Shown: piece after piece, positions 10,610 to 62,661 of the stretch
Position numbering within the stretch: position 1 is the first letter of the stretch
How the letters are laid out: every line of letters starts with the position of its first letter
Origin: a virus
IMG/VR virus record: IMGVR_UViG_3300045941_000233
Location: 1-64,000 of that record
Length of the DNA stretch: 64,000 nt
Direction: 5' to 3' (one strand)
Made by a program: the position numbers and the translations under genes
The notes under the pieces: model-generated
Seen by the model: the letters and a program-made list of their open reading frames with translations, nothing else
What the model was told of the DNA's origin: nothing
Databases searched by the model: none

Positions 10610-12499
10610 ATGAGTACCGCGACACTAGAGCGACCGCCGACCCAGGCGGCGAACGGCCAGCAATCCAAAGCGGATTTTTTGTCGCCGCTTTGGGGCGATA
10701 TCGACATTCCGATCATCATCGGGACCGGCGACTTCGGCCAGGGAAAGACTCTCTTCGGTCTAACGATCGCGCCGGGGCCCGTAACGCTGTGCTACGACCA
10801 GGAGGGCAGCAGCCTGACTTACCGGTCGATCGACTTCGACCACGTCGATATGGCCGCCGAGTTGATGAAGCTGTATCCCGACGGCTTCACGCCGGAGCAG
10901 CGGTTTTTGTGGTGGCGCGACGACGTGATACGACGCGGCAAGGCGGGCGGCCGCCAGGGTCGTTATCGCGTGATGATGACTGACCCTATGTCCGAGATTG
11001 AAGACGGTCTGGCCGACCACGTTCGCAAAAACATCACCAAATTCGGACTGACCAGCAACCAGGCCGACAAGTCGCCAGGGCTGTTCTGGGGCGTGATGAA
11101 GCGCGAATGGAAACTGACCCTCGACCGGTTCCGGATTTACTTCGACACGATTTACGGGACGGTTCATCTTCGCAATGAATTCGTCGGCAATTCCCCGAGC
11201 GGCAAGCAGGAGCCCAAGGGCAAGGAAACGCTGTTCGAGCTGGCCAGCCTGTTTCTGTGGTTCGACCGCCCCAAGGATCCAAGCGGCGCCGTATCGGCCG
11301 TGCCGGCGGCGAACGTGCTCAAATCGCGACTTGCCCGCACGACGATGATCGACGGCGAGCTGCAGATTGCTCCGGTCCTGCCGCCGCGACTGCCGCGGGC
11401 GACGCCCAAAGCGATTCGCGACTACATCGCCACCCCTCCGGACTACTCGAAACTCAAAAAGGATGAGCGAGTCAAGGAAAAGGAATTCACCGAAGAGGAA
11501 AAGCTGCGATTGCAGGCGCAGATCGCATCGGACCAAGCGGCCGCGTCGCAAGCCGAGCTGTCACGCATCGACAGGATGCAGCAAGCGGCGGCAGCCCAAG
11601 CCGCGCGACTGGCCACGACGCAACAGCCGCCGGATGCGGCCGGCGAGCACGCCGACCGTTCCCAGCAGAAATCGGCAGCGGCCACCGGCGGATTGGTCTC
11701 CGCCGGCAAAGTCGCGCAAATCGTCAGCCTGTTCAGCCAGTGCTTTGCGACCCCTGACGATTTGGGCGCCTGGCTGCAGCCGAAGCTGTCGCAGTGGGGA
11801 GTCGGCAAGGTTTCGCAGCTTACTCAATCGCAAGGCGAGCAGCTTGAAATCGACCTGACGGAGTTGCTGGCCCGCGGCAGGGTTGCCGACGCGATGGCGA
11901 AGGGTGCGGCGCTGTTGGCCACCCAAGGGCCCGGCAACGCCATGAAGGATCCGCCTTTCGAGCCGTCGCCGGAGTCGGTTCAGCAATCAGCCGAGCCGGA
12001 AACTTCGACCGTTCCGCCGGCCGGTGTTGCTGAGCTGGCGGAGCACGTCACGCAATCGCTTTCGGCTGAAAAGCCGCCGCGGCCGGTGAGTCCGTCGCAG
12101 ATCAAGGAATTCACGATCCTATTGCCGCAGGCGTTCGCTACGGACGCCGAGCTGGCCGCCGGGGTTCCACCGCTACTTGCGCCTTACGGCGGCCAGCGTT
12201 TTTCTCAACTGACAGAACCGCAAGCCGACGTCGTGCTGGCGAATCTCAGGATTAAAGTCGGCATGCGGACTGGCGCCGCGGCCGGACCCAATGCGCCCGG
12301 TTCGATTACGGCCGAGCAAGTGCAGAGCCTGAAAGGCTTGGCGGAAAAGACCGGCTGGACCTACGACCAGCAAGCGGAGTGGCTGAAGCAATTCGGCGTC
12401 GTGAATTTCAAGGGCCTGACGTTCAATCAGGGCGCCAGCCGGATCAATGAGCTAATCAAAATCGCGGAAGGATTCGCAGGAGGTGCACCGGGAAACTAG
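10610..12499 (+). CDS. Sak4/RecA-like ATPase with three C-terminal repeats
   Basis: 629 aa. Walker A is GTGDFGQGKT (38-47) and the Walker B strand VMMTDP (121-126), in a small RecA-like core (to ~250) of the phage Sak4 / nucleotide-binding type used in single-strand annealing recombination. A charged coiled stretch (~275-340) is followed by three diverged copies of a ~60-residue helical module at about 361-419, 490-550 and 563-619 (pattern S..Q...L...L...LT..QA..L). The ribosome site is CGACAAGGAG. The gene ends GGA-AAC-TAG inside a complete -1 frameshift signal, so a longer 701-aa form is predicted. Its neighbours (12686, 13693) fit a recombination/replication complex. Confidence 0.82.
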   Translation: MSTATLERPPTQAANGQQSKADFLSPLWGDIDIPIIIGTGDFGQGKTLFGLTIAPGPVTLCYDQEGSSLTYRSIDFDHVDMAAELMKLYPDGFTPEQRFLWWRDDVIRRGKAGGRQGRYRVMMTDPMSEIEDGLADHVRKNITKFGLTSNQADKSPGLFWGVMKREWKLTLDRFRIYFDTIYGTVHLRNEFVGNSPSGKQEPKGKETLFELASLFLWFDRPKDPSGAVSAVPAANVLKSRLARTTMIDGELQIAPVLPPRLPRATPKAIRDYIATPPDYSKLKKDERVKEKEFTEEEKLRLQAQIASDQAAASQAELSRIDRMQQAAAAQAARLATTQQPPDAAGEHADRSQQKSAAATGGLVSAGKVAQIVSLFSQCFATPDDLGAWLQPKLSQWGVGKVSQLTQSQGEQLEIDLTELLARGRVADAMAKGAALLATQGPGNAMKDPPFEPSPESVQQSAEPETSTVPPAGVAELAEHVTQSLSAEKPPRPVSPSQIKEFTILLPQAFATDAELAAGVPPLLAPYGGQRFSQLTEPQADVVLANLRIKVGMRTGAAAGPNAPGSITAEQVQSLKGLAEKTGWTYDQQAEWLKQFGVVNFKGLTFNQGASRINELIKIAEGFAGGAPGN

Positions 12500-12538
12500 C
12501 GGCTGGCGCAGCCTTCTGGCCGGCGGAGCTGCGCCAGC
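12478..12538 (+). promoter_or_regulatory. -1 programmed ribosomal frameshift signal
   Basis: AGGAGG (12478-12483), slippery heptamer G_GGA_AAC (12490-12496) in the zero frame, stop TAG (12497-12499), five-base spacer, then a perfect 11-bp stem GCTGGCGCAGC (12502-12512) / GCTGCGCCAGC (12528-12538) with a 15-base loop. All three known stimulatory parts of a bacterial -1 site are present. No T-run follows the stem, so a terminator is unlikely. Confidence 0.82.
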
Positions 12539-12714
12539 TTGTAACCGCCTACGGCCCCCGCGCCGTGTGGGATGCCGGCTTTGATGTACTTGGCTATCCG
12601 CCCACTTGGGCGAGCCACAAATACGAACGCGATTCACTGATAAGGTTTCTGTTTGACAATTCCAAAAACGACAAGGAGCTAGAGCATGCCACAGATTTCG
12701 ACAGTGGGAAGTGA
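12496..12714 (+). CDS. -1 frame extension of the Sak4-like ATPase
   Basis: After slippage at AAC the ribosome reads CTA at 12496 and continues for 72 codons to TGA at 12712-12714, giving a 701-aa product. The extension reads LAAGAAFWPAELRQLVTAYG ... AVWDAGFDVLGYPPTWASHK, and its first half has normal high-GC coding choices. The open frame starts at 12451 but contains no ATG, GTG, TTG or CTG upstream of the slip site in a usable place, so independent initiation is unlikely. It overlaps the next gene by 29 bases and contains that gene's ribosome site. No known domain. A decayed gene fragment is the alternative. Confidence 0.72.
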   Translation, partial: LAAGAAFWPAELRQLVTAYGPRAVWDAGFDVLGYPPTWASHKYERDSLIRFLFDNSKNDKELEHATDFDSGK

Positions 12715-13435
12715 CCCTACCAAGGGCAGCGGTGATTGGTTGACCGAAGAATGCGACGTCATTCTATCGGTCGAAGAGTACAAGGAAGCCGGCGTCGGGA
12801 CCGAAGATTATCACTGCCTCATCACGGCGGTAGTTCACTCTTCGACCGTTCCGAGCCAAGTCGGCAAAAAGGTGAAGGACCAAAAATTCTTCTTCCTCAA
12901 GAGCCAGAACAAGATTTTCGAGTTGTCTTGCGCTCTGGGTCTCTATACCAAGCCGAAGTGGGAGCAGGATGTTGCCGCCGGGGCGGCGCCGAATATCCCG
13001 CTCGAAGGATGCGGCGGCATGATGTTCGCGACGCCGGTGCGGCATAAGAAATGGCGGGAGCCGGACGATACTCAGTATTGGTCCGAGCAGCTTCAAGTCG
13101 CGAAGCAGAACGGCGACGAAAAAAAGGCCAAGCGCTGCCAGGACGTGCTGCAAGCCAAGCGCGGCATGCTGCAGATTGGCGGCGATTCCGGCTTCACGTT
13201 CTGGGCACTTGGCGACCCGCAGTCGGACGGCATTCCGATCGATGCCGCGACGATGGCTATGCTGTCGGCCACGTTCCCGCACGGGCTGCCGACAAAGATG
13301 GGCACGCCCCGCAAGCGCGGCGAGTCGGCCGGCCCACAAATGCCGGCGAAGAAGACCGCTCCGTCTAATGGCAACGGCGGTGCAGCTCCGGCGCAGCAGC
13401 CGGCGGGGGCTGGTTTCGGCAGTCAGTTCGTTTAA
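12686..13435 (+). CDS. Putative ssDNA-binding or accessory recombination protein
   Basis: 249 aa, directly after the Sak4-like ATPase with a CGACAAGGAG site. The N-terminal ~120 residues (VILSVEEYKEAG, HCLITAVVHSS, KFFFLKSQNKIFELSCALGL) look like an OB-type or DUF669-like beta domain. A helical part follows, then a Pro/Ala/Gly/Asn-rich disordered tail ending GFGSQFV, a layout like SSB proteins. Phages often pair such a protein with Sak4 ATPases. The assignment rests on context and layout, not on a clear motif. Confidence 0.6.
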   Translation: MPQISTVGSDPTKGSGDWLTEECDVILSVEEYKEAGVGTEDYHCLITAVVHSSTVPSQVGKKVKDQKFFFLKSQNKIFELSCALGLYTKPKWEQDVAAGAAPNIPLEGCGGMMFATPVRHKKWREPDDTQYWSEQLQVAKQNGDEKKAKRCQDVLQAKRGMLQIGGDSGFTFWALGDPQSDGIPIDAATMAMLSATFPHGLPTKMGTPRKRGESAGPQMPAKKTAPSNGNGGAAPAQQPAGAGFGSQFV

Positions 13436-13692: not shown

Positions 13693-16191
13693 ATGGCTAA
13701 AGCAAACGTCGAAATAACCGCTACGCTGCTATTCGAGCGGCGACCGCCAAACTGCGAGAATTTTTTTATCGCGGAGTGTCGCGTCGTCGGCGGAGAATAC
13801 GACGGCAAGACAATCAAGTTTGTCGGCAACTGCGAAGAGGGCGAGCTGCAGCCGCAACTGACGTATCGGTTTTACGGCTATTGGAAAGACGATCCGAAGT
13901 GGGGACTGCAATTCAACGTCGTTACGTTCGTGATGGCCATGCCGCACGGCCGCCAGGGGATCGTTAAGTATCTTGAAATCAATTGCGACGAAATCGGCAA
14001 GGCCAGGGCCGAACAGCTTTGGAACAAATTCAATGCGGACGCGGTTCGTGTTTGCCGTGAGCATCCGGAAATTCTGGCTGATTCGATCAAGGGGCTGTCG
14101 CTCGAACAGGCGCAGCACATCAGCGACCAGTTGAAGGCGGCCGAGTCGGTGGAGTCGGTATCGATCGAGCTGATCGATTTTTTCGCCGGCATGAATGTTC
14201 CCAAGTCGGTTTACAAGGAAGCGCTGCGGCTGTGGGGCAACAAAGCTACGGAGCTATTCAAGATAAATCCGTATCTCATGCTGGCGCTGAACGGTATCGG
14301 TTTCCTGAAAGCCGACAACATTTACTGCCAGTTGGGGCTACCGCTAGGACGGACGAAGCGGCAGATTCACTGCCTGAACTACGAAGCGAAGCAAGTCGAA
14401 GATACTTGGGTCTCTGACGGGCAAGCCACCCAGCTCCTGCAGAAAAAAATCGCCGGGACAGGTGTAAACCTGGAACGAGCCCTGGCCGTCGGCACGCGGG
14501 CGAAAATGTTCACGACCAAGCGGCACTGTGGAAAGTGCGGCGGCAGCGGCCGCGGCATGATTCCGGACCTATTCGACGGCGAGACTCTTGTTGATGGGCC
14601 ATGTATAGCATGCCGCGGCAGCGGCGGCCCGCGGTGGATTGCCCTGGCGCAGCGGGCGGCCAATGAGCAGATCGTCGCCGAGAAAGCTTCGATTCTGTTG
14701 CGGACAACGTCACAATGGCCGGACGTCGGTTTGGTGAAGGGCGTTAGCGACCATCAGCGGGCGGCACTGGCGAATTCATTCAAGGCATCGCTGGCCTGCT
14801 TCATCGGCGGTCCCGGCACCGGAAAATCGCACACAACGGCCGCCCTGGTTCGCACGTTACTACAGAAATTCGGCGCCGGCAGTGTGGCCGCGGCAGCTCC
14901 CACCAACAAAGCGGCCGTGCGGCTGACGCAAGGCTTCCGCGCGAATGATATCGGCTTGAATGCGACGTCGATCCATAGCCTGCTGGGAGTCGAAAAGGTC
15001 GAAGACGGAAACTGGGAATTCCGGCATAGTCGCCGCAATCCGTTTCCCTATCGGGCAATTATTCTCGACGAAACGTCGATGCTTTCGACGGACCTGGCGG
15101 CGTGCGTCTTCGACGCGATCATGCCTGGCACGATGGTTTTAATGATTGGCGACACCGGTCAGTTGCCCCCGATTCAGCACGGCGCCGTACTCCGCGACTT
15201 TCTGGCCGCTGGCGTGCCGGTTGGCGAGCTGACCGAACCGCAGCGAAATGCCGGCGATTTGGTTTTCGCGTGCCAGGATATCAAGCAGGGCCGCCGGTTC
15301 CGCGAGTCGGCCGAGATCGATTTGGATTCGCTCCCGCCGCGCAACTTCAAATTTATCCATGCCAGCAACCCCGACGAACAGATCGAGGAATTGCATAAGC
15401 TGTTGGATTGGGCGAAGTCGATTGGCCTGGACCCGGTCTGGGACTGCCAAGTCATGTCGGCGGTCAACAAGACGTCGAAGGTCAGCCGCGAGGTTCTGAA
15501 CAAGATCCTTCAGGAGCGTTTCAATCCAGGCGATCAAGCCAATTTCCGCGTCAAGGATAAAGTGATTTGCGATGAAAACGGTTTCTACAAAACGGCGGCT
15601 GCGCCTAGCAACCCGCCAACGGATTTTGGCGGCGATCAAGGCGGAGGCGGCGACGAAGACGAATGTTTCATCGCAAAAGGCGAATTCGGCCAAGTGCTCG
15701 GAATCAACAAAAAATTCGTCGTCGTGAAATTCGACGAGGGCCGGATTGTCAGTTTCCCGCTGGGACGCGAACGGAAATCGAGCGTACCGGCCGACGGTGG
15801 AACGACTGAAAGCAGTTGCCCGATTCAGTTGGCCTATTCGTGCACCGTCCACCGCATGCAAGGCAGCGAGTGCAAGCTGGCCATTCCAATGATCGACGAA
15901 TCGGCCGGCGCGAAGTGGCTTGGCTGCCGCGAGCTGTTTTTTACCGCGATTAGCCGTGGCAAGCTGCTGACCCGTCCGATTGGCCAGCGGAGCACGGCCG
16001 ATGCGATGTGCAAAAAAGTGTCAATCGGGAAGCGGAAGACTTTCCTGGCGGAGCTGGTCAAGCAGTACCTGGGAAGCCAGCCGAAGGCGGCCGTGATAAC
16101 CGAACAGATGGCGATGGAGGCGGTCGATAGCGCCTTCAATCAGGGCAGCGAGTTATCGACGGATTTGGCGGCCGCGGGTGTAGTGGGGTAA
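13693..16191 (+). CDS. RecD2-like superfamily 1B DNA helicase with zinc insertion
   Basis: 832 aa. C-terminal helicase core: Walker A GGPGTGKS (~372-379), motif Ia PTNKAAVRLTQ, Walker B IILDETSML, motif III GDTGQLPPI, motif VI region YSCTVHRMQGSE and FTAISRGKLL. This is the RecD/AAA_30 family that unwinds DNA 5'-3'. The N-terminal ~230 residues resemble the RecD2 N-terminal and HhH-like region (LNGIGFLKADNIYCQLGL). An insertion at ~277-311 has two CxxCxGxG motifs (CGKCGGSGRG, CIACRGSGG), a DnaJ-type zinc finger not usual in RecD2. It probably acts with the Sak4 ATPase and the ERCC4 nuclease in phage replication or recombination. Confidence 0.88.
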   Translation: MAKANVEITATLLFERRPPNCENFFIAECRVVGGEYDGKTIKFVGNCEEGELQPQLTYRFYGYWKDDPKWGLQFNVVTFVMAMPHGRQGIVKYLEINCDEIGKARAEQLWNKFNADAVRVCREHPEILADSIKGLSLEQAQHISDQLKAAESVESVSIELIDFFAGMNVPKSVYKEALRLWGNKATELFKINPYLMLALNGIGFLKADNIYCQLGLPLGRTKRQIHCLNYEAKQVEDTWVSDGQATQLLQKKIAGTGVNLERALAVGTRAKMFTTKRHCGKCGGSGRGMIPDLFDGETLVDGPCIACRGSGGPRWIALAQRAANEQIVAEKASILLRTTSQWPDVGLVKGVSDHQRAALANSFKASLACFIGGPGTGKSHTTAALVRTLLQKFGAGSVAAAAPTNKAAVRLTQGFRANDIGLNATSIHSLLGVEKVEDGNWEFRHSRRNPFPYRAIILDETSMLSTDLAACVFDAIMPGTMVLMIGDTGQLPPIQHGAVLRDFLAAGVPVGELTEPQRNAGDLVFACQDIKQGRRFRESAEIDLDSLPPRNFKFIHASNPDEQIEELHKLLDWAKSIGLDPVWDCQVMSAVNKTSKVSREVLNKILQERFNPGDQANFRVKDKVICDENGFYKTAAAPSNPPTDFGGDQGGGGDEDECFIAKGEFGQVLGINKKFVVVKFDEGRIVSFPLGRERKSSVPADGGTTESSCPIQLAYSCTVHRMQGSECKLAIPMIDESAGAKWLGCRELFFTAISRGKLLTRPIGQRSTADAMCKKVSIGKRKTFLAELVKQYLGSQPKAAVITEQMAMEAVDSAFNQGSELSTDLAAAGVVG

Positions 16192-39745: not shown

Positions 39746-40813
39746 ATGGCACAGAAAACCGCATTGATAACCGGAATCACCGGCCAGATTGGATCTTATC
39801 TGGCCGAATTGCTTCTATCACTCGATTACCGGCGCGTCCATGGTCTAGTTCGGCCGTCGTCGGACGTGGTGGCCAGCCGCGAGCGGATTGAGTCTTTCGC
39901 GAACAACCCGCGCGTCGAGCTCCACTACGGCGATTTGTCAGATCAAGCTGGCCTGACGCGATTGCTCCGCCAGATCAAGCCGGACGAAATTTACAACCTG
40001 GCCGCGCAGTCGCATGTCGCTATCAGTTTTTCCCTGCCCTGCGCAACTGGGGACGTAACCGGGCTTGGCTGTCTGCGATTACTGGAAGCCATGCGTGAGG
40101 CTTCGCCCGAGTCCAGGTTCTATCAAGCGTCGTCTAGCGAGCTCTTCGGCAATTCGCCGGCGCCGCAGTCGGAAAAGACGCCATTTAGGCCCCGCAGTCC
40201 CTATGCGGCCGCCAAACTTTTTGCCTATACGGTATGTGTAAATTACCGCGAGGCTTACGGGCTGCACGTCAGCAACGGGATTCTGTTCAATTCCGAGTCT
40301 CCGCGCCGCGGCCCGGGCTTTGTCACCCGCAAGATCACCCGCGGCGTGGCCCGCATCGCAAATACTGTCGGCCGGCCGGCGGACAGAATCATCAGGCTTG
40401 GCAACCTGAACGCCCGCCGGGATTGGATGCACGCCAAGGATGCTGTGCGCGGCATGCATGCCATGCTACAGCAGGACGGTCCAGGCGATTACGTGCTGGC
40501 CAGCGGCCGCAGCGAGTCCGTGAAGACGTTTTGCGAGATGGCGTTTCAGCGCGTCAAGATTCCGCTGTTTTGGGTTACAGAGAAAATTCCTGGACTGATC
40601 GACCGCGAGTATGCTGCCTACTTCACGGAATTTGTGGAAATGGGGCGGGTGCGGGTGATTGAAGTCGATCCGGCCTATATTCGTCCGACTGAAGTTCCGC
40701 ACCTATGCGGCGATGCGGGCAAGGCCTGGCGCGTGCTAGGATGGCGGCCGGAGATTTCGCTTGAGTCGCTGATCGACGAAATGGTCGAAGCGGACTTGAA
40801 TAGAGAATCGTAG
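39746..40813 (+). CDS. gmd: GDP-mannose 4,6-dehydratase
   Basis: 355 aa, full family length. NAD(P) site ITGITGQIGSYLAE (~8-21), then the VHGLVRPSS loop, LHYGDLSDQAGL and YNLAAQSHVAISF. The catalytic region is YQASSSELFG with SPYAAAKLFAY (the Tyr and Lys of YxxxK). NSESPRRGPGFVTRKI and RDWMHAKD are strong GMD marks. It makes GDP-4-keto-6-deoxymannose, precursor of fucose or rhamnose-type sugars. With kdsB and three glycosyltransferases in the window, it points to remodelling of surface glycans or decoration of virions. It starts divergently from the minus-strand block. Confidence 0.93.
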   Translation: MAQKTALITGITGQIGSYLAELLLSLDYRRVHGLVRPSSDVVASRERIESFANNPRVELHYGDLSDQAGLTRLLRQIKPDEIYNLAAQSHVAISFSLPCATGDVTGLGCLRLLEAMREASPESRFYQASSSELFGNSPAPQSEKTPFRPRSPYAAAKLFAYTVCVNYREAYGLHVSNGILFNSESPRRGPGFVTRKITRGVARIANTVGRPADRIIRLGNLNARRDWMHAKDAVRGMHAMLQQDGPGDYVLASGRSESVKTFCEMAFQRVKIPLFWVTEKIPGLIDREYAAYFTEFVEMGRVRVIEVDPAYIRPTEVPHLCGDAGKAWRVLGWRPEISLESLIDEMVEADLNRES

Positions 40814-45950: not shown

Positions 45951-46739
45951 ATGCGAACCATCATCATCATTCCGGCCCGGCTCAACTCCACGCGACTGCC
46001 CCGCAAGCTGCTGCTGGCGGAGACGGGAGTGTCGTTGATCGAGCATGTCGCCAGACAGTGCTACCACTGCCATGCTCCTGACGAAATGATCCTGGCTGCG
46101 CCAAATGACGACGCGACGGAGATTTCCAATGCCGTGCGGCGGCAAGTGTTCACTACCAGCAGTTGGCCCAAGGTTGCCCATACCGCCAGCCACCATCCAA
46201 ACGGGACCAGCCGCGCGGCGCAGGTAATGTTGTTCGCCGACCAGATTTGCCAGCGGCCCGACGGCTGGTGGGAAGCGTATTGCATCGTCCAGGCCGACTA
46301 TCCTGAGATTCCGCCAGAGCTCATCGACGAAGTGGTCAACCAGCTTGAGCAGCATCCCGACTGGGACTGTGCGACGGCATGCGGCCCGCTTGGCGGAAGC
46401 ATAACGTGGGAAGAGTGTTTTGACGGAAATCGGGTAAAGGTTTTTTTGGGAGATGACAATTGTGCTGTTGACTTCAGTCGCGATTCTCGCGGACTAAATC
46501 CGCTCAATTACGATCGGCTAGGCATTCACATCGGCATTTACTGCTACCGCCGCGCCGCCCTACTCCGCTACTCGGCCGCCGGCCCGTGCGAGCGCGAGCA
46601 AGCCGAATCACTCGAACAACTGCGAGCTCTGCACATCGGCCTGAAAATGGGTGTCGTGCCGTGGGACAAGCCAGTCGCCGGAATTGACACCCGCGAGGAT
46701 TACGACCTATTTGTCAAACGATGGAAGAGCAAAGCATGA
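45951..46739 (+). CDS. kdsB: CMP-KDO synthetase-like cytidylyltransferase
   Basis: 262 aa. IIIIPARLNSTRLPRKLLL is the KdsB/NeuA nucleotide-binding signature. CIVQADYPEIPPELIDEVV is the metal/acceptor region, HIGIYCYRRAALLRYS and ESLEQLRAL are the typical KdsB end, and KPVAGIDTREDYDLF completes it. The substrate could be KDO or a related acidic sugar; it activates the sugar as CMP derivative. The KdsB ending motif is convincing, the exact sugar is inference. Its presence beside gmd in the same accessory island hints at glycan mimicry. Confidence 0.82.
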   Translation: MRTIIIIPARLNSTRLPRKLLLAETGVSLIEHVARQCYHCHAPDEMILAAPNDDATEISNAVRRQVFTTSSWPKVAHTASHHPNGTSRAAQVMLFADQICQRPDGWWEAYCIVQADYPEIPPELIDEVVNQLEQHPDWDCATACGPLGGSITWEECFDGNRVKVFLGDDNCAVDFSRDSRGLNPLNYDRLGIHIGIYCYRRAALLRYSAAGPCEREQAESLEQLRALHIGLKMGVVPWDKPVAGIDTREDYDLFVKRWKSKA

Positions 46740-47248
46740 GCGCGGTCGCGGAAGCCAGGGTCATATCTCCGTTGGCCGTCCAAATCCGTTGGATGATCCG
46801 GCGCGACATGCCGGAAGTGCTGGCGATCGAAAAGCACTGCTTTGAATTTCCTTGGTACGAAGAGGATTTTATTCGCTGTCTCCGCTTCCGGAATTGCATC
46901 GGCATGGTGTCGGAAGTCGGCGAACGGGTTGTGGGCTTCATGCTGTACGAGCTCCACCGGCACCGGCTGCATGTACTCAATTTCGCCGTGCATGAGCAAT
47001 TTCGCCGCCGGACCGTCGGAACCACGATGGCCAAAAAATTGACCAGCAAGCTATCCCCTGACCGCCGCACCCGGATTGTGCTGGAAGTCCGCGAAACGAA
47101 CCTGTCGGCCCAGCTATTTTTGAAAGCGATTGGTTTTCGGGCTGTGAAGATTTTGCCGAGGCATTACGAGGAAACGCCCGAAGATGCCTACCAATTCAGC
47201 TACCGATACCAGCCTCCCGAGTGCGACGGCAAATTTGCCCCGTTTTGA
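46736..47248 (+). CDS. GNAT acetyltransferase (RimI-like)
   Basis: 170 aa, ATGA overlap with kdsB. IRRDMPEVLAIEKHCFEFPW start, MLYELHRHRLHVLNFAVHEQ beta strand and RRRTVGTTMAKKL (Q/RxxGxG/A acetyl-CoA loop variant), then LEVRETNLSAQLFLKAIGF, the usual RimI N-in-LF-GF pattern. Transfers acetyl from acetyl-CoA; target unknown (ribosomal protein or sugar amine). Confidence 0.82.
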   Translation: MSAVAEARVISPLAVQIRWMIRRDMPEVLAIEKHCFEFPWYEEDFIRCLRFRNCIGMVSEVGERVVGFMLYELHRHRLHVLNFAVHEQFRRRTVGTTMAKKLTSKLSPDRRTRIVLEVRETNLSAQLFLKAIGFRAVKILPRHYEETPEDAYQFSYRYQPPECDGKFAPF

Positions 47249-59388: not shown

Positions 59389-60057
59389 ATGCCTGGCGAG
59401 TTACAACCGGTCGAAGAGCAGATCCTTTTCTGTCGCAATCCCGAGCAGTTTGGCGACGGGACGGCCCTGAACATCCTTCGAACCAATCGTCCCAAATGGT
59501 GGATCGTCAGAACTCCATCCTGGCTGACAGTCGATCAACTGAATCAGATTTTCGAAGCTGGCGTGAATCGTTGGTCGAAGGTGGCGAACGTCTATGCCAC
59601 CCGCGCGGACTCCATGGAGCTCGCGGACTGGATCATCGACGCGCAGAGCATCGACGGCCCGGGAAAGATTTTGGCCGACGCCGAGCTACCCGGCTTTTCC
59701 CGCCAGCAGAAAGTCCGGATCGACATTGCCGAGTCGGCGCTGCGCGATCGAATGTCTGACATTTTGGGCCATGAGGGCGGCCACCTATACGGCCTGCATC
59801 ACTTTTCGTCGGCGCCGCCGCCGGAGTGGATGGAACCGACGCTGGGCGTTGTGAACACGCCACAGCAGGCGGAAGCATCGCTGATGGCGCAGCTTTATGG
59901 CCTGCCGCAGTCAACTCCGCCGGGCTCCGGACCGAGCATTCCGCCGGTCGTCAGCACTTGCCGGATCGAGGTTGTTGACGGCATCGCGAAAGCGTCAATC
60001 AGTGTTCAGCAAGCCAACAAAAAGGCGATGCTGGACGGCAACAAGCAAATGGTTTAA
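59389..60057 (+). CDS. Metzincin-like zinc peptidase of the virion region
   Basis: 222 aa; CGAAAGAGGGG before the ATG. ILGHEGGHLYGLHHFSSA (~125-142) is the metzincin/matrixin signature HExxHxxGxxH with the third His, then a Pro-rich linker and a small beta end. It starts MPGELQPVEEQILFCRNPEQ and has no signal peptide. Such peptidases can act in cell-wall or surface-protein degradation at infection or release; substrate unknown. Confidence 0.72.
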   Translation: MPGELQPVEEQILFCRNPEQFGDGTALNILRTNRPKWWIVRTPSWLTVDQLNQIFEAGVNRWSKVANVYATRADSMELADWIIDAQSIDGPGKILADAELPGFSRQQKVRIDIAESALRDRMSDILGHEGGHLYGLHHFSSAPPPEWMEPTLGVVNTPQQAEASLMAQLYGLPQSTPPGSGPSIPPVVSTCRIEVVDGIAKASISVQQANKKAMLDGNKQMV

Positions 60058-60076
60058 CGAAAACCCCGGGGGCGGG

Positions 60077-61783
60077 ATGTTTGGAGTTCTGTTTGTGCTG
60101 GCCACTATGGGCCAGATCGATATTCCACCGCTGCCCGGCTACTTGCCGGCGGCCGTCGCTCCTGCGCCGCAGCAAGTCGCGCCAATTGTCGAAGCGGTTC
60201 GCGTTCCGGACACCACGGATTATGTGGCATGGGCTGTGCAGGATCTAATGCTCCGCCAGCCGACGGACCGGCCATTCATGCGATACCTGGCCGTTCCCGC
60301 GTGGGGCGACATTAGCTGGCATCACGTCAATTCGTACATGGTCAATTCGGCCATCAGCCAGTCGAGCGTTACCGTGCGTCCGGAAGGAACCGCCGGCGGC
60401 TGGATGATCGTTTGGGATTTGCGGCGACTGGCGCCGAAAGAACATGATCTAAAGCGATTGCTGGCCGTCTGGGACGCTTTAGCGCACGGAGAGCCCTATT
60501 TCCATGTCGAGCTACCGCAAGGAAAACAAGTCGCCTGTCGGCAATACACCCATCTCGACGGCAAAATCTACACCCAGCGGCGATTTGTCCCCGCTCCGCA
60601 TGTTGCCGAAGGTTATGGCATCTTGGAGCGCGAGACTGCGGCTTTCGCGCCGCTTCTCCGGGCGGACTATTTTCTGAGGCGAGTCGCCAGCACGGTTGAT
60701 GGCGGTCTGTATTACCACTTCATCGGCTTCATCAGTGGCGGTAAGCGGCTGACCGAAACCGAGATTTTCAAGCTGGTTGGCCTGGACGTGGCACTTTCCC
60801 GCGGGGTCGAAGGCGACGACCGGGCGGCCGTGTTCCAGTCGGCAGTGACTGGCAAGCCGCGCACGGTCGAACAAGTCCAGGGCGCCATTGGTAAAGCGCG
60901 GATTACCTACGATCTATTCGACGAAGACGTCGAAGCCGGCCGGCATCCGATTTACGAATTGCTCGACTTTGTGAAGCGAGCTCGCGGCAAGGAATTGATT
61001 TACGAGCGGCAGAACGGGACTCTCGGCTATTTCCTGGCTGACGGCGAAGGGAAATTGGTCGATGTTGCCCCGCCAAATCTCGCCAGCGACCACAACACTC
61101 CGGCGCCGGTGACGAAGCAGCTTTTCCCGCCGCTTAGCTGCATTCGCTGCCACGGCCCGCATAGTGGCGTCCAGATCGTCCGAAACGACGTGCAGACGCT
61201 GTTAAGCGGCGGCAGCGGCGAAGTCGATTTGTTCGATGACCTGACCAGCAAGGACAACCGCTTCGCTACCGTCGATCGACTGGCTGGCCTGTATGCCGCG
61301 GCCGACGCTTTCAATTTCGACGCTGAACTGTCCCGCTCGCGGCATGCCGACGCCATTTTTCGGGCAACCCGCGGGATGGGTGTTCGCGAGCGCGAAAACG
61401 TAGCCTCCAAAGCCGCGGCCAAGCTGTCCGAGCAATTCGCCGACTATTGGTATCCCCGATCGCCGACCGAAGCGAACGTGAACGCCGACCGGGCTTGTCT
61501 GGAACTTGGCTGGCGAGTGCCGCCGGGAGATGGCTCCGCATTCTTGAATCAGACACTGCGGCCGCATCGCGTGGACTTTTCGGTCCAGGGCGTGCCTGTC
61601 GAGTCGGCCGATCCGGCCCTGGCTGCATTGCGGCGACTGAAAACGAACCCCGATGGGACGCTGTTCCTCCAAAACGGAAAGCCGGTTAGCGCCGGCCTGA
61701 CGATCCGGCGACAGGACTTGGATCGAATCTATCCATACGCCGCCGGCCAGATGATCGAAGCTCGAAAGAACCCAAAACCTTAA
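60077..61783 (+). CDS. CxxCH (cytochrome c-like) protein
   Basis: 568 aa from ATG 60077. A hydrophobic start (MFGVLFVLATMGQIDIPPLP) could be a weak signal. The heme motif CIRCH (C355, C358, H359) sits in LSCIRCHGPHSGVQIV. The rest (PEGTAGGWMIVWDLRRLAPK, RYLAVPAWGDISWHHVNSYM) resembles large cytochrome c-domain proteins of Planctomycetes. It needs export and host heme ligation if it is a cytochrome. Only one CxxCH is seen, so the second axial ligand is uncertain. Confidence 0.65.
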   Translation: MFGVLFVLATMGQIDIPPLPGYLPAAVAPAPQQVAPIVEAVRVPDTTDYVAWAVQDLMLRQPTDRPFMRYLAVPAWGDISWHHVNSYMVNSAISQSSVTVRPEGTAGGWMIVWDLRRLAPKEHDLKRLLAVWDALAHGEPYFHVELPQGKQVACRQYTHLDGKIYTQRRFVPAPHVAEGYGILERETAAFAPLLRADYFLRRVASTVDGGLYYHFIGFISGGKRLTETEIFKLVGLDVALSRGVEGDDRAAVFQSAVTGKPRTVEQVQGAIGKARITYDLFDEDVEAGRHPIYELLDFVKRARGKELIYERQNGTLGYFLADGEGKLVDVAPPNLASDHNTPAPVTKQLFPPLSCIRCHGPHSGVQIVRNDVQTLLSGGSGEVDLFDDLTSKDNRFATVDRLAGLYAAADAFNFDAELSRSRHADAIFRATRGMGVRERENVASKAAAKLSEQFADYWYPRSPTEANVNADRACLELGWRVPPGDGSAFLNQTLRPHRVDFSVQGVPVESADPALAALRRLKTNPDGTLFLQNGKPVSAGLTIRRQDLDRIYPYAAGQMIEARKNPKP

Positions 61784-61800: not shown

Positions 61801-62661
61801 ATGAAACGGTTACTGGCTTTGCTTGTATTGCTTGCTGTCTGGCTTACTGCAACTCCGGCCGATGCCTGCCACCGGTGCGGGATTTTCGGCCGTGGCTGCC
61901 GGTTTAATCACGTTCCGGCGGTCATTCACGCGGCGCCTTACGTCGCTCCGGCCTACGGCAACCAGACTTTTAATTTCATCAACAGCTACCCCCTGAACCT
62001 TATTCCTGGCGGCAATTCGGTGTACGGCTACAACCTAGCCGCCCAGCCGCTGGCTCTCGACGTTCCGCTGGTGCTCGATCGCTCCGCCCGACTGGCCGAA
62101 GCGTTTTCCGTCGGCGCCGTGCAGGCCCTGAACGGCCACAATGCCAACGTCCAAGGCGCTTTATCGCTGGTGGACGGCATCGATCGCCGATCGAAAAACA
62201 TTCAGGCATTTACGGCGACACTGCAGGCCAACAATGGAGCTCAGCCGGTCCAGTCCCCGCCGTCGCTGTCTTTTCGCGTGACTGTCGGCGCCGACGGCCA
62301 GCCGAAAGTTGAGCGATTGGAAGCCGGCAAACCATGCCCCGACGGCAATTGTCCAGATCCGGCAATCCCGCCGCCGTCGCCCATCCAGGCCCCCGAGCAG
62401 CCGCTGACGCCCAAGCAAACCGGATTGCAGTACCGCGGCCAGTCGCTGGGAGTGCTTTCGGCCGTTTGCGGTAAATGCCACGACGGGCTTGGCACAAAAG
62501 ACACTCCGCTTGGATTGGTCATTGACGATCGCGCCGTACTTACGCCAGATCAAAGGAAGCTGGCCTTGAAAAAAGTCGAGGCAGGAAAAATGCCGCCCCC
62601 GGGCTCGATAGCCGTCAGCATCGACGTCTTGAATAGCGTCCGGGCGGCCCTGGCAAACTGA
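61801..62661 (+). CDS. Exported CxxCH (cytochrome c-like) protein
   Basis: 286 aa. A clear signal peptide MKRLLALLVLLAVWLTATPA with cleavage near ADA-CH. The C-terminal domain (~205-286) holds LSAVCGKCHDGLG (C223, C226, H227) and EAGKMPPPGSIAVS, a Met likely to be the second ligand, as in small c-type cytochromes. The middle is a helical, Asn/Pro-rich region (LAAQPLALDVPLVL). CCGAAAGG lies before the ATG. It is the best supported cytochrome c candidate in the pair. Confidence 0.78.
   Translation: MKRLLALLVLLAVWLTATPADACHRCGIFGRGCRFNHVPAVIHAAPYVAPAYGNQTFNFINSYPLNLIPGGNSVYGYNLAAQPLALDVPLVLDRSARLAEAFSVGAVQALNGHNANVQGALSLVDGIDRRSKNIQAFTATLQANNGAQPVQSPPSLSFRVTVGADGQPKVERLEAGKPCPDGNCPDPAIPPPSPIQAPEQPLTPKQTGLQYRGQSLGVLSAVCGKCHDGLGTKDTPLGLVIDDRAVLTPDQRKLALKKVEAGKMPPPGSIAVSIDVLNSVRAALAN

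Follow-up and report, generated by a model that had tools for sequence, protein, structure and literature searches.

The programmed frameshifts that we found described in phages occur in tail, capsid and transposase genes, where they serve virion assembly or transposons. In the lambda G/GT system, which produces a tail chaperone and lies by the tape-measure gene, a gene ends in a conserved site and yields both a short and an extended product from a single start, with a heptamer that varies between phages and a shift that is mostly -1 but in some cases +1. In the dnaX system (tau/gamma), the frameshift yields the shorter form of a nucleotide-binding DNA-replication protein, and the signals consist of an SD-like site upstream, a heptamer, a stop and a hairpin. 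In IS3-family transposases, enzymes of DNA transactions, two domains are joined by -1 slippage to give OrfAB, with the catalytic domain encoded by the second ORF. The G-T tail genes of Burkholderia phage KL1 contain a predicted GGGAAAC directly 5' of TGA (PMC3483164). According to a 2016 frameshifting review, Listeria phage PSA uses +1 shifting on a proline codon adjoining a stop, and such phages are apparently indifferent to whether the shift is +1 or -1 (PMC5009743).

Here we describe a phage recombinase gene, the 3' end of which is very probably a programmed -1 frameshift cassette that would supply a minority of adaptor-bearing subunits; the slippage, the ratio and the adaptor function are inferred. 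The gene lies within a stretch of 64,000 nt (hereafter the window), which comprises positions 1-64,000 of the 104,285-base IMG/VR virus record IMGVR_UViG_3300045941_000233. Comparison with the described systems shows that the locus and its relatives share with G/GT the conserved site at a gene end, the variable heptamer, the two predicted forms from one start and the mostly -1, sometimes +1, shift. However, the protein is a recombination protein encoded next to SSB-like and RecD2 genes rather than a tail chaperone next to the tape-measure gene, and the G/GT extension is unrelated to the three-helix domain found here. An identity as a G/GT-type tail chaperone was considered and, given these neighbors, rejected. 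The dnaX likeness lies in the protein class and in the arrangement of the signals, but here the frameshift would yield the longer form by adding a domain, and there is no homology. As in IS3 elements, two domains would be fused by -1 slippage, but here the zero frame encodes a complete recombinase and the second ORF only a small accessory domain. Finally, the window protein resembles the Sak4-like/AAA_24 phage recombinases in its Walker A motif, AAA_24 match, SSB-like gene order and C-terminal module, although its AAA_24 score falls below the cut-off.

Our search of the open-licence literature, which leaves earlier reports elsewhere possible, found no frameshift in a phage recombinase or annealing gene, including Sak4, RecT and ERF, and the available part of the 2016 review mentions no recombinase, RecT or annealing protein (PMC5009743). 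The suggestion in the initial annotation that frameshifting in a recombination ATPase would be new is thus without a contrary precedent in that literature. The mechanism is of a known kind; what is new within the literature searched is the class of gene involved, the adaptor common to the loci and the passage of that adaptor from one recombinase to another, unrelated one. The locus very likely represents a real, previously unreported control device in a large group of bacterial viruses, most of them uncultured.

Signals at the 3' end of the window recombinase gene

Table 1. Coordinates in the window of the putative frameshift cassette and of the two genes that follow it
Feature	Position	Strand	Basis or remark
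Zero-frame recombinase ORF, 629 aa	10610..12499	+	Ends CCG GGA AAC TAG
SD-like AGGAGG, possible stimulator	12479..12484	+	Six bases 5' of the heptamer; not clearly conserved
Slippery heptamer G_GGA_AAC	12490..12496	+	X_XXY_YYZ in zero-frame phase; abuts the stop
Zero-frame stop TAG	12497..12499	+	Sequence
Hairpin, 11 Watson-Crick pairs and one G-U	12501..12539	+	12501-12512 with 12528-12539; 15-base loop
-1 frame extension, 72 codons and TGA	12496..12714	+	Conserved three-helix domain, ~12517-12660
Next gene, SSB-like (DUF669 / phrog_378) position	12686..13435	+	Position matches phrog_378 in L002 and L027
RecD2-like helicase	13693..16191	+	phrog_4412, E=8e-78; HHH_RecD2, E=1e-14

The initial annotation had identified the AGGAGG, the in-frame heptamer and the adjoining TAG, and all three are confirmed base for base, as are the five-base spacer, the perfect 11-bp stem with its 15-base loop and the -1 frame, which stays open for 72 codons but offers no usable start codon (Table 1). 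Perfect pairing joins 12502-12512 to 12528-12538, and one further pair, G12501-U12539, can be added, which shortens the spacer between heptamer and stem to 4 bases if it is counted. A downstream hairpin ~5-8 nt from the site, as required of a -1 cassette, is therefore present. After a slip, the ribosome would read CTA GCG and onward to the TGA at 12712-12714, generating a 701-aa product with the predicted junction peptide GAPGN-LAAGAAFWPAELR. The -1 frame is open only from 12451 and contains no ATG, GTG or TTG 5' of the conserved domain; its first GTG, at 12565, already lies within that domain. The window stem is better than those of 200 of 200 shuffles, but the local fold gives z values of -2.2 (55 nt) and -1.6 (71 nt), which makes the energy alone only moderately unusual. 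Because of this, conservation was examined.

The extension encodes a domain with the conserved pattern WP..L..LV..YG...V...GL..LGYPPTW (alignment A3), and AlphaFold produced a confident three-helix model with a mean pLDDT of 85 and a core of ~95. No significant match to this domain was found in Pfam, PHROGs, PDB or BFVD. The possibility that it is a further copy of the module that terminates the recombinase was ruled out (hhalign probability 0.5%).

Relatives of the extension and turnover of the slip site

Neither the window recombinase nor the extension alone retrieved relatives when used as a query against IMG/VR or GenBank phages, because both sequences are too divergent, and a Walker-A DNA pattern scan returned only unrelated loci. 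Relatives were reached via the RecD2-like helicase, which is encoded two genes downstream of the window recombinase. Among the loci obtained in this way, extension homologues sit directly 3' of the recombinase gene. An extension HMM, built from six loci and then from 35, detected the domain at E < 1e-6 in 39 loci, the window among them, and in each case immediately 3' of a recombinase gene; 37 of the 38 other loci are environmental virus contigs. The gene order common to them is recombinase gene, extension, SSB-like gene and RecD2 helicase, although the RecD2 linkage is partly built into the search strategy, since the relatives were collected through RecD2. A search with extension alignment A5 recovered six known RecD2 loci and two new ones, of which L114 also contains RecD2 and L111 runs off the end of its contig. 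Planctomycetota genomes contributed one real locus (G001, the same as L031, from a Planctomycetaceae MAG lineage); two weak matches there, L106 and L107, were discarded as lying inside an ORF that, by our own reading, resembles the rRNA methyltransferase RsmB. The extension is absent from at least five RecD2-type loci (L002, L036, L050, L053 and L070) and from the cultured phages P8625 and B22, which carry RecT-like relatives.

Of the 39 loci, 27 (the window among them) have the extension in the -1 frame and 12 have it in the +1 frame. The initial annotation had proposed conservation of the heptamer and of the stem as checks. An in-phase X_XXY_YYZ heptamer is present in the last three codons in 17 of the 27 -1 loci but in only 6 of 527 other ORFs from the same loci (Fisher p = 8e-21), while the other two phases contain one and no heptamers at the same junctions. 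GGGAAAC is found in the window and, at the same position, in L024, L040 and L061, and in L066 and L049 it sits one codon further 5'. The remaining heptamers are AAAAAAC (L028, L041, L042 and L056), AAAAAAG (L037), CCCTTTT/C/G (L033, L064 and L055) and AAACCCT (L031, L032 and L059). In the other ten of the 27 loci, no strict heptamer falls within the last three codons. One of them, L026, has AAAAAAC ~ten codons 5' of the stop, outside this limit, and three have near-motifs: GGACCCT in L035 and AATCCCT in L067, both with strong stems, and GGTTTTT in L046, which is similar to the T7 gene 10 site. The others (L027, L039, L047, L054, L062 and L068) are unexplained or have possible starts. A T_TTT_TTT in L025 and L027 was also considered as a slip site but was left uncounted, as L025 has no extension homologue.

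On the RecD2 tree, heptamer identity changes at least 10 times with place and phase kept, and the direction of the shift changes at least 5 times. Because the heptamer changes while its place and phase stay, slippage appears to have been selected, as opposed to a motif inherited by chance. The sister loci L055 (CCCTTTG) and L056 (AAAAAAC) illustrate this turnover, and their extensions differ with a dN of 0.18 and a dS of 0.77 (dN/dS ~0.23), a ratio that shows purifying selection on the extension. Collectively, these data establish the cassette and its conservation from sequence and evolution. They also indicate that the window signal is not chance, conservation being the decisive evidence.

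The hairpins follow the heptamers. Mean hairpin z is -2.6 in the 17 heptamer loci, compared with -0.5 in the 12 +1-frame loci and -0.3 at control gene ends (heptamer versus +1-frame loci, Mann-Whitney p = 4e-4), so that the +1 loci show no hairpin excess; the stems mostly start 4-10 bases 3' of the slip site. The SD-like site, in contrast, is not clearly conserved, being present in 4 of the 17 heptamer loci versus 13.7% of control gene ends, and the AGGAGG of the window may therefore be incidental. In the +1 loci, CCC_N sites are found at or near the zero-frame stop in L038 (CCC_TTT_TGA), L111 (CCC_TTT), L048 (CCC_TAC_TAA) and L063 (CCC_CAG_TAG). This arrangement is like that of phage PSA, in which, however, the +1 frameshifts extend capsid and tail proteins.

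Recombinases upstream and genes downstream of the extension

The initial annotation called the window protein a Sak4/RecA-like ATPase. It contains a probable RecA-like ATPase domain (~aa 30-280) with the Walker A sequence GTGDFGQGKT, followed at the C-terminal end by three repeated ~60-aa modules (window ~11690-12480). This C-terminal module is common to AAA_24/Sak4-like proteins (hhalign 95.9%) and also terminates other, unrelated phage recombinases. The protein is 38% identical to that of L026. Its match to Pfam AAA_24 (E=1.2e-4) falls short of the curated cut-off, and it has no PHROG match. Confidence in the full-length model is low (pLDDT 55), and the top Foldseek hits are RAD51/RecA filaments (E ~3e-3, prob 0.99). 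Because AAA_24 is below the cut-off and a low-confidence model ranks RAD51/RecA first, the RecA-like part of that description is likely to hold, while the Sak4 assignment is unproven.

The recombinases of other loci differ. L024 and L048 clear the AAA_24 threshold, and L048 also matches the Sak4-like phrog_124; an ERF protein precedes the extension in L027 and L046, and a RecT-like protein does so in L066 and L035 (phrog_561), with a weak RecT match in L062. The window recombinase forms its own divergent group among them. Because the recombinases encoded 5' of the extension come from unrelated families, it is the extension that the frameshift accompanies, and not any one recombinase. The proposal of a frameshift in a recombination ATPase is thus supported, but the arrangement is not confined to ATPases and extends to RecT-like and ERF annealing proteins. 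Taken together, it is likely that a large group of environmental phages keeps one frameshift-encoded adaptor on at least three unrelated recombinase families, through slip-site turnover and switches between -1 and +1, and that this sets a minority of adaptor subunits.

The RecD2 helicase genes of three loci contain long insertions (L069:1599-5090, L031:5830-8503 and L050:5956-8650). A LAGLIDADG domain lies just 5' of the helicase core in L069, and the split in L031 and L050 comes after Cys-Leu-Ser, suggesting inteins or intein remnants.

Alternative explanations and proposed mechanism

A single reading frame that lost one base, by sequencing or assembly error or through decay, would also leave an extension in another frame, and the window does come from a single metagenomic virus record. 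However, the same architecture recurs in 38 further loci, which come from many samples and show varied heptamers and both shift directions, and the extension is under purifying selection (L055/L056). This explanation was already refuted once relatives were seen to share the architecture, and we regard it as practically eliminated. The fusion might instead arise by RNA polymerase stuttering on a homopolymer, which is conceivable on the A6 runs of those relatives with AAAAAAC. GGGAAAC and CCCTTTN contain short runs only, though, and 17 heptamers stand in the X_XXY_YYZ phase that two-tRNA slippage requires, against 1 out of phase, which disfavors transcriptional slippage. The downstream hairpins also speak against it, and we consider it highly improbable. 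Neither explanation displaces ribosomal -1 frameshifting into 629- and 701-aa forms, which remains the best explanation, as the initial annotation had proposed, and now has the support of 38 related loci.

It is also possible that the extension is a small gene of its own, translated by termination-reinitiation or from its own start, with the heptamers incidental. Candidate starts do exist: in L057 (2933-4187) and L058 (2918-4178) the extension has a good SD and its own GTG (GGAGGCGAGTC-GTG), L062 has an ATG after the SD-like GGGGCGAG, and L031 has a TGATG overlap. The extension may therefore be a separate protein in some lineages, and in that of L057/L058 it seems now to be a separate gene. 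A separate start in related phages had been named at the outset as grounds for refutation, and these few relatives meet it, but the main pattern stands. No ATG, GTG or TTG precedes the domain in the extension frame in 13 of the 21 slip-motif loci (the window and 12 others), and reinitiation is disfavored in the window for lack of a start codon. A separate gene would moreover leave the in-phase heptamer enrichment, the heptamer turnover and the hairpins unexplained, and we judge it very unlikely as a general account. More room, if still little, must be left for a frameshift that is real but serves regulation, for example by ribosome pausing or by coupling with the gene that follows, with no adaptor role for the extension. 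In the window, the extension overlaps the next gene by 29 bases, such that frameshifted ribosomes would stop just beyond its ATG. Such an overlap is not general among the loci, however, and the extension is conserved as a protein and models as a folded domain.

The -1 frameshift cassette is thus strongly supported by evolution, in the absence of experimental data. In the mechanism that we propose, most ribosomes would read GGA-AAC and stop at the TAG, releasing the 629-aa recombinase, while a minority would be delayed at the hairpin, possibly with a contribution from pairing of the AGGAGG with 16S rRNA. Both tRNAs would then re-pair on GGG-AAA after a one-base back-slip, producing the 701-aa form, in which the C-terminal three-helix domain may act as an adaptor. 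That the two forms are made in a fixed ratio, as initially suggested, is an inference, and no efficiency can be computed. As such recombinases act as oligomers on single-stranded DNA, we infer that each assembly would be seeded with a minority of adaptor-carrying subunits. Downstream, the conserved neighbors encode the SSB-like protein and the RecD2 helicase, and it is probably with these that the adaptor makes contact, an inference based on the retention of the adaptor when the recombinase is swapped for one of an unrelated type.

If this mechanism is correct, phages set the composition of a recombination complex at the ribosome, which would be the equivalent in recombination of the G/GT rule for tail chaperones. 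The loci also offer a new conserved small domain, the partner of which (RecD2 or SSB) is directly testable, and natural -1 and +1 slippery sequences at one homologous site. They further provide a warning for annotation, in that a C-terminal domain of these recombinases has been overlooked.

Several other features of the genomes were noted. In the window, an in-phase CCCAAAA at 61771 lies near the end of an ORF (59885-61783) and is followed by a long open -1 frame, which is probably merely the next gene (61801-62661), as this has its own ATG. GNAT (RimI-like) acetyltransferase genes are present in the window (46721-47248) and in L002 (1576-2112). The window also encodes a 355-aa protein (39746-40813) that matches phrog_540, "nucleotide-sugar epimerase," with E=9e-79.
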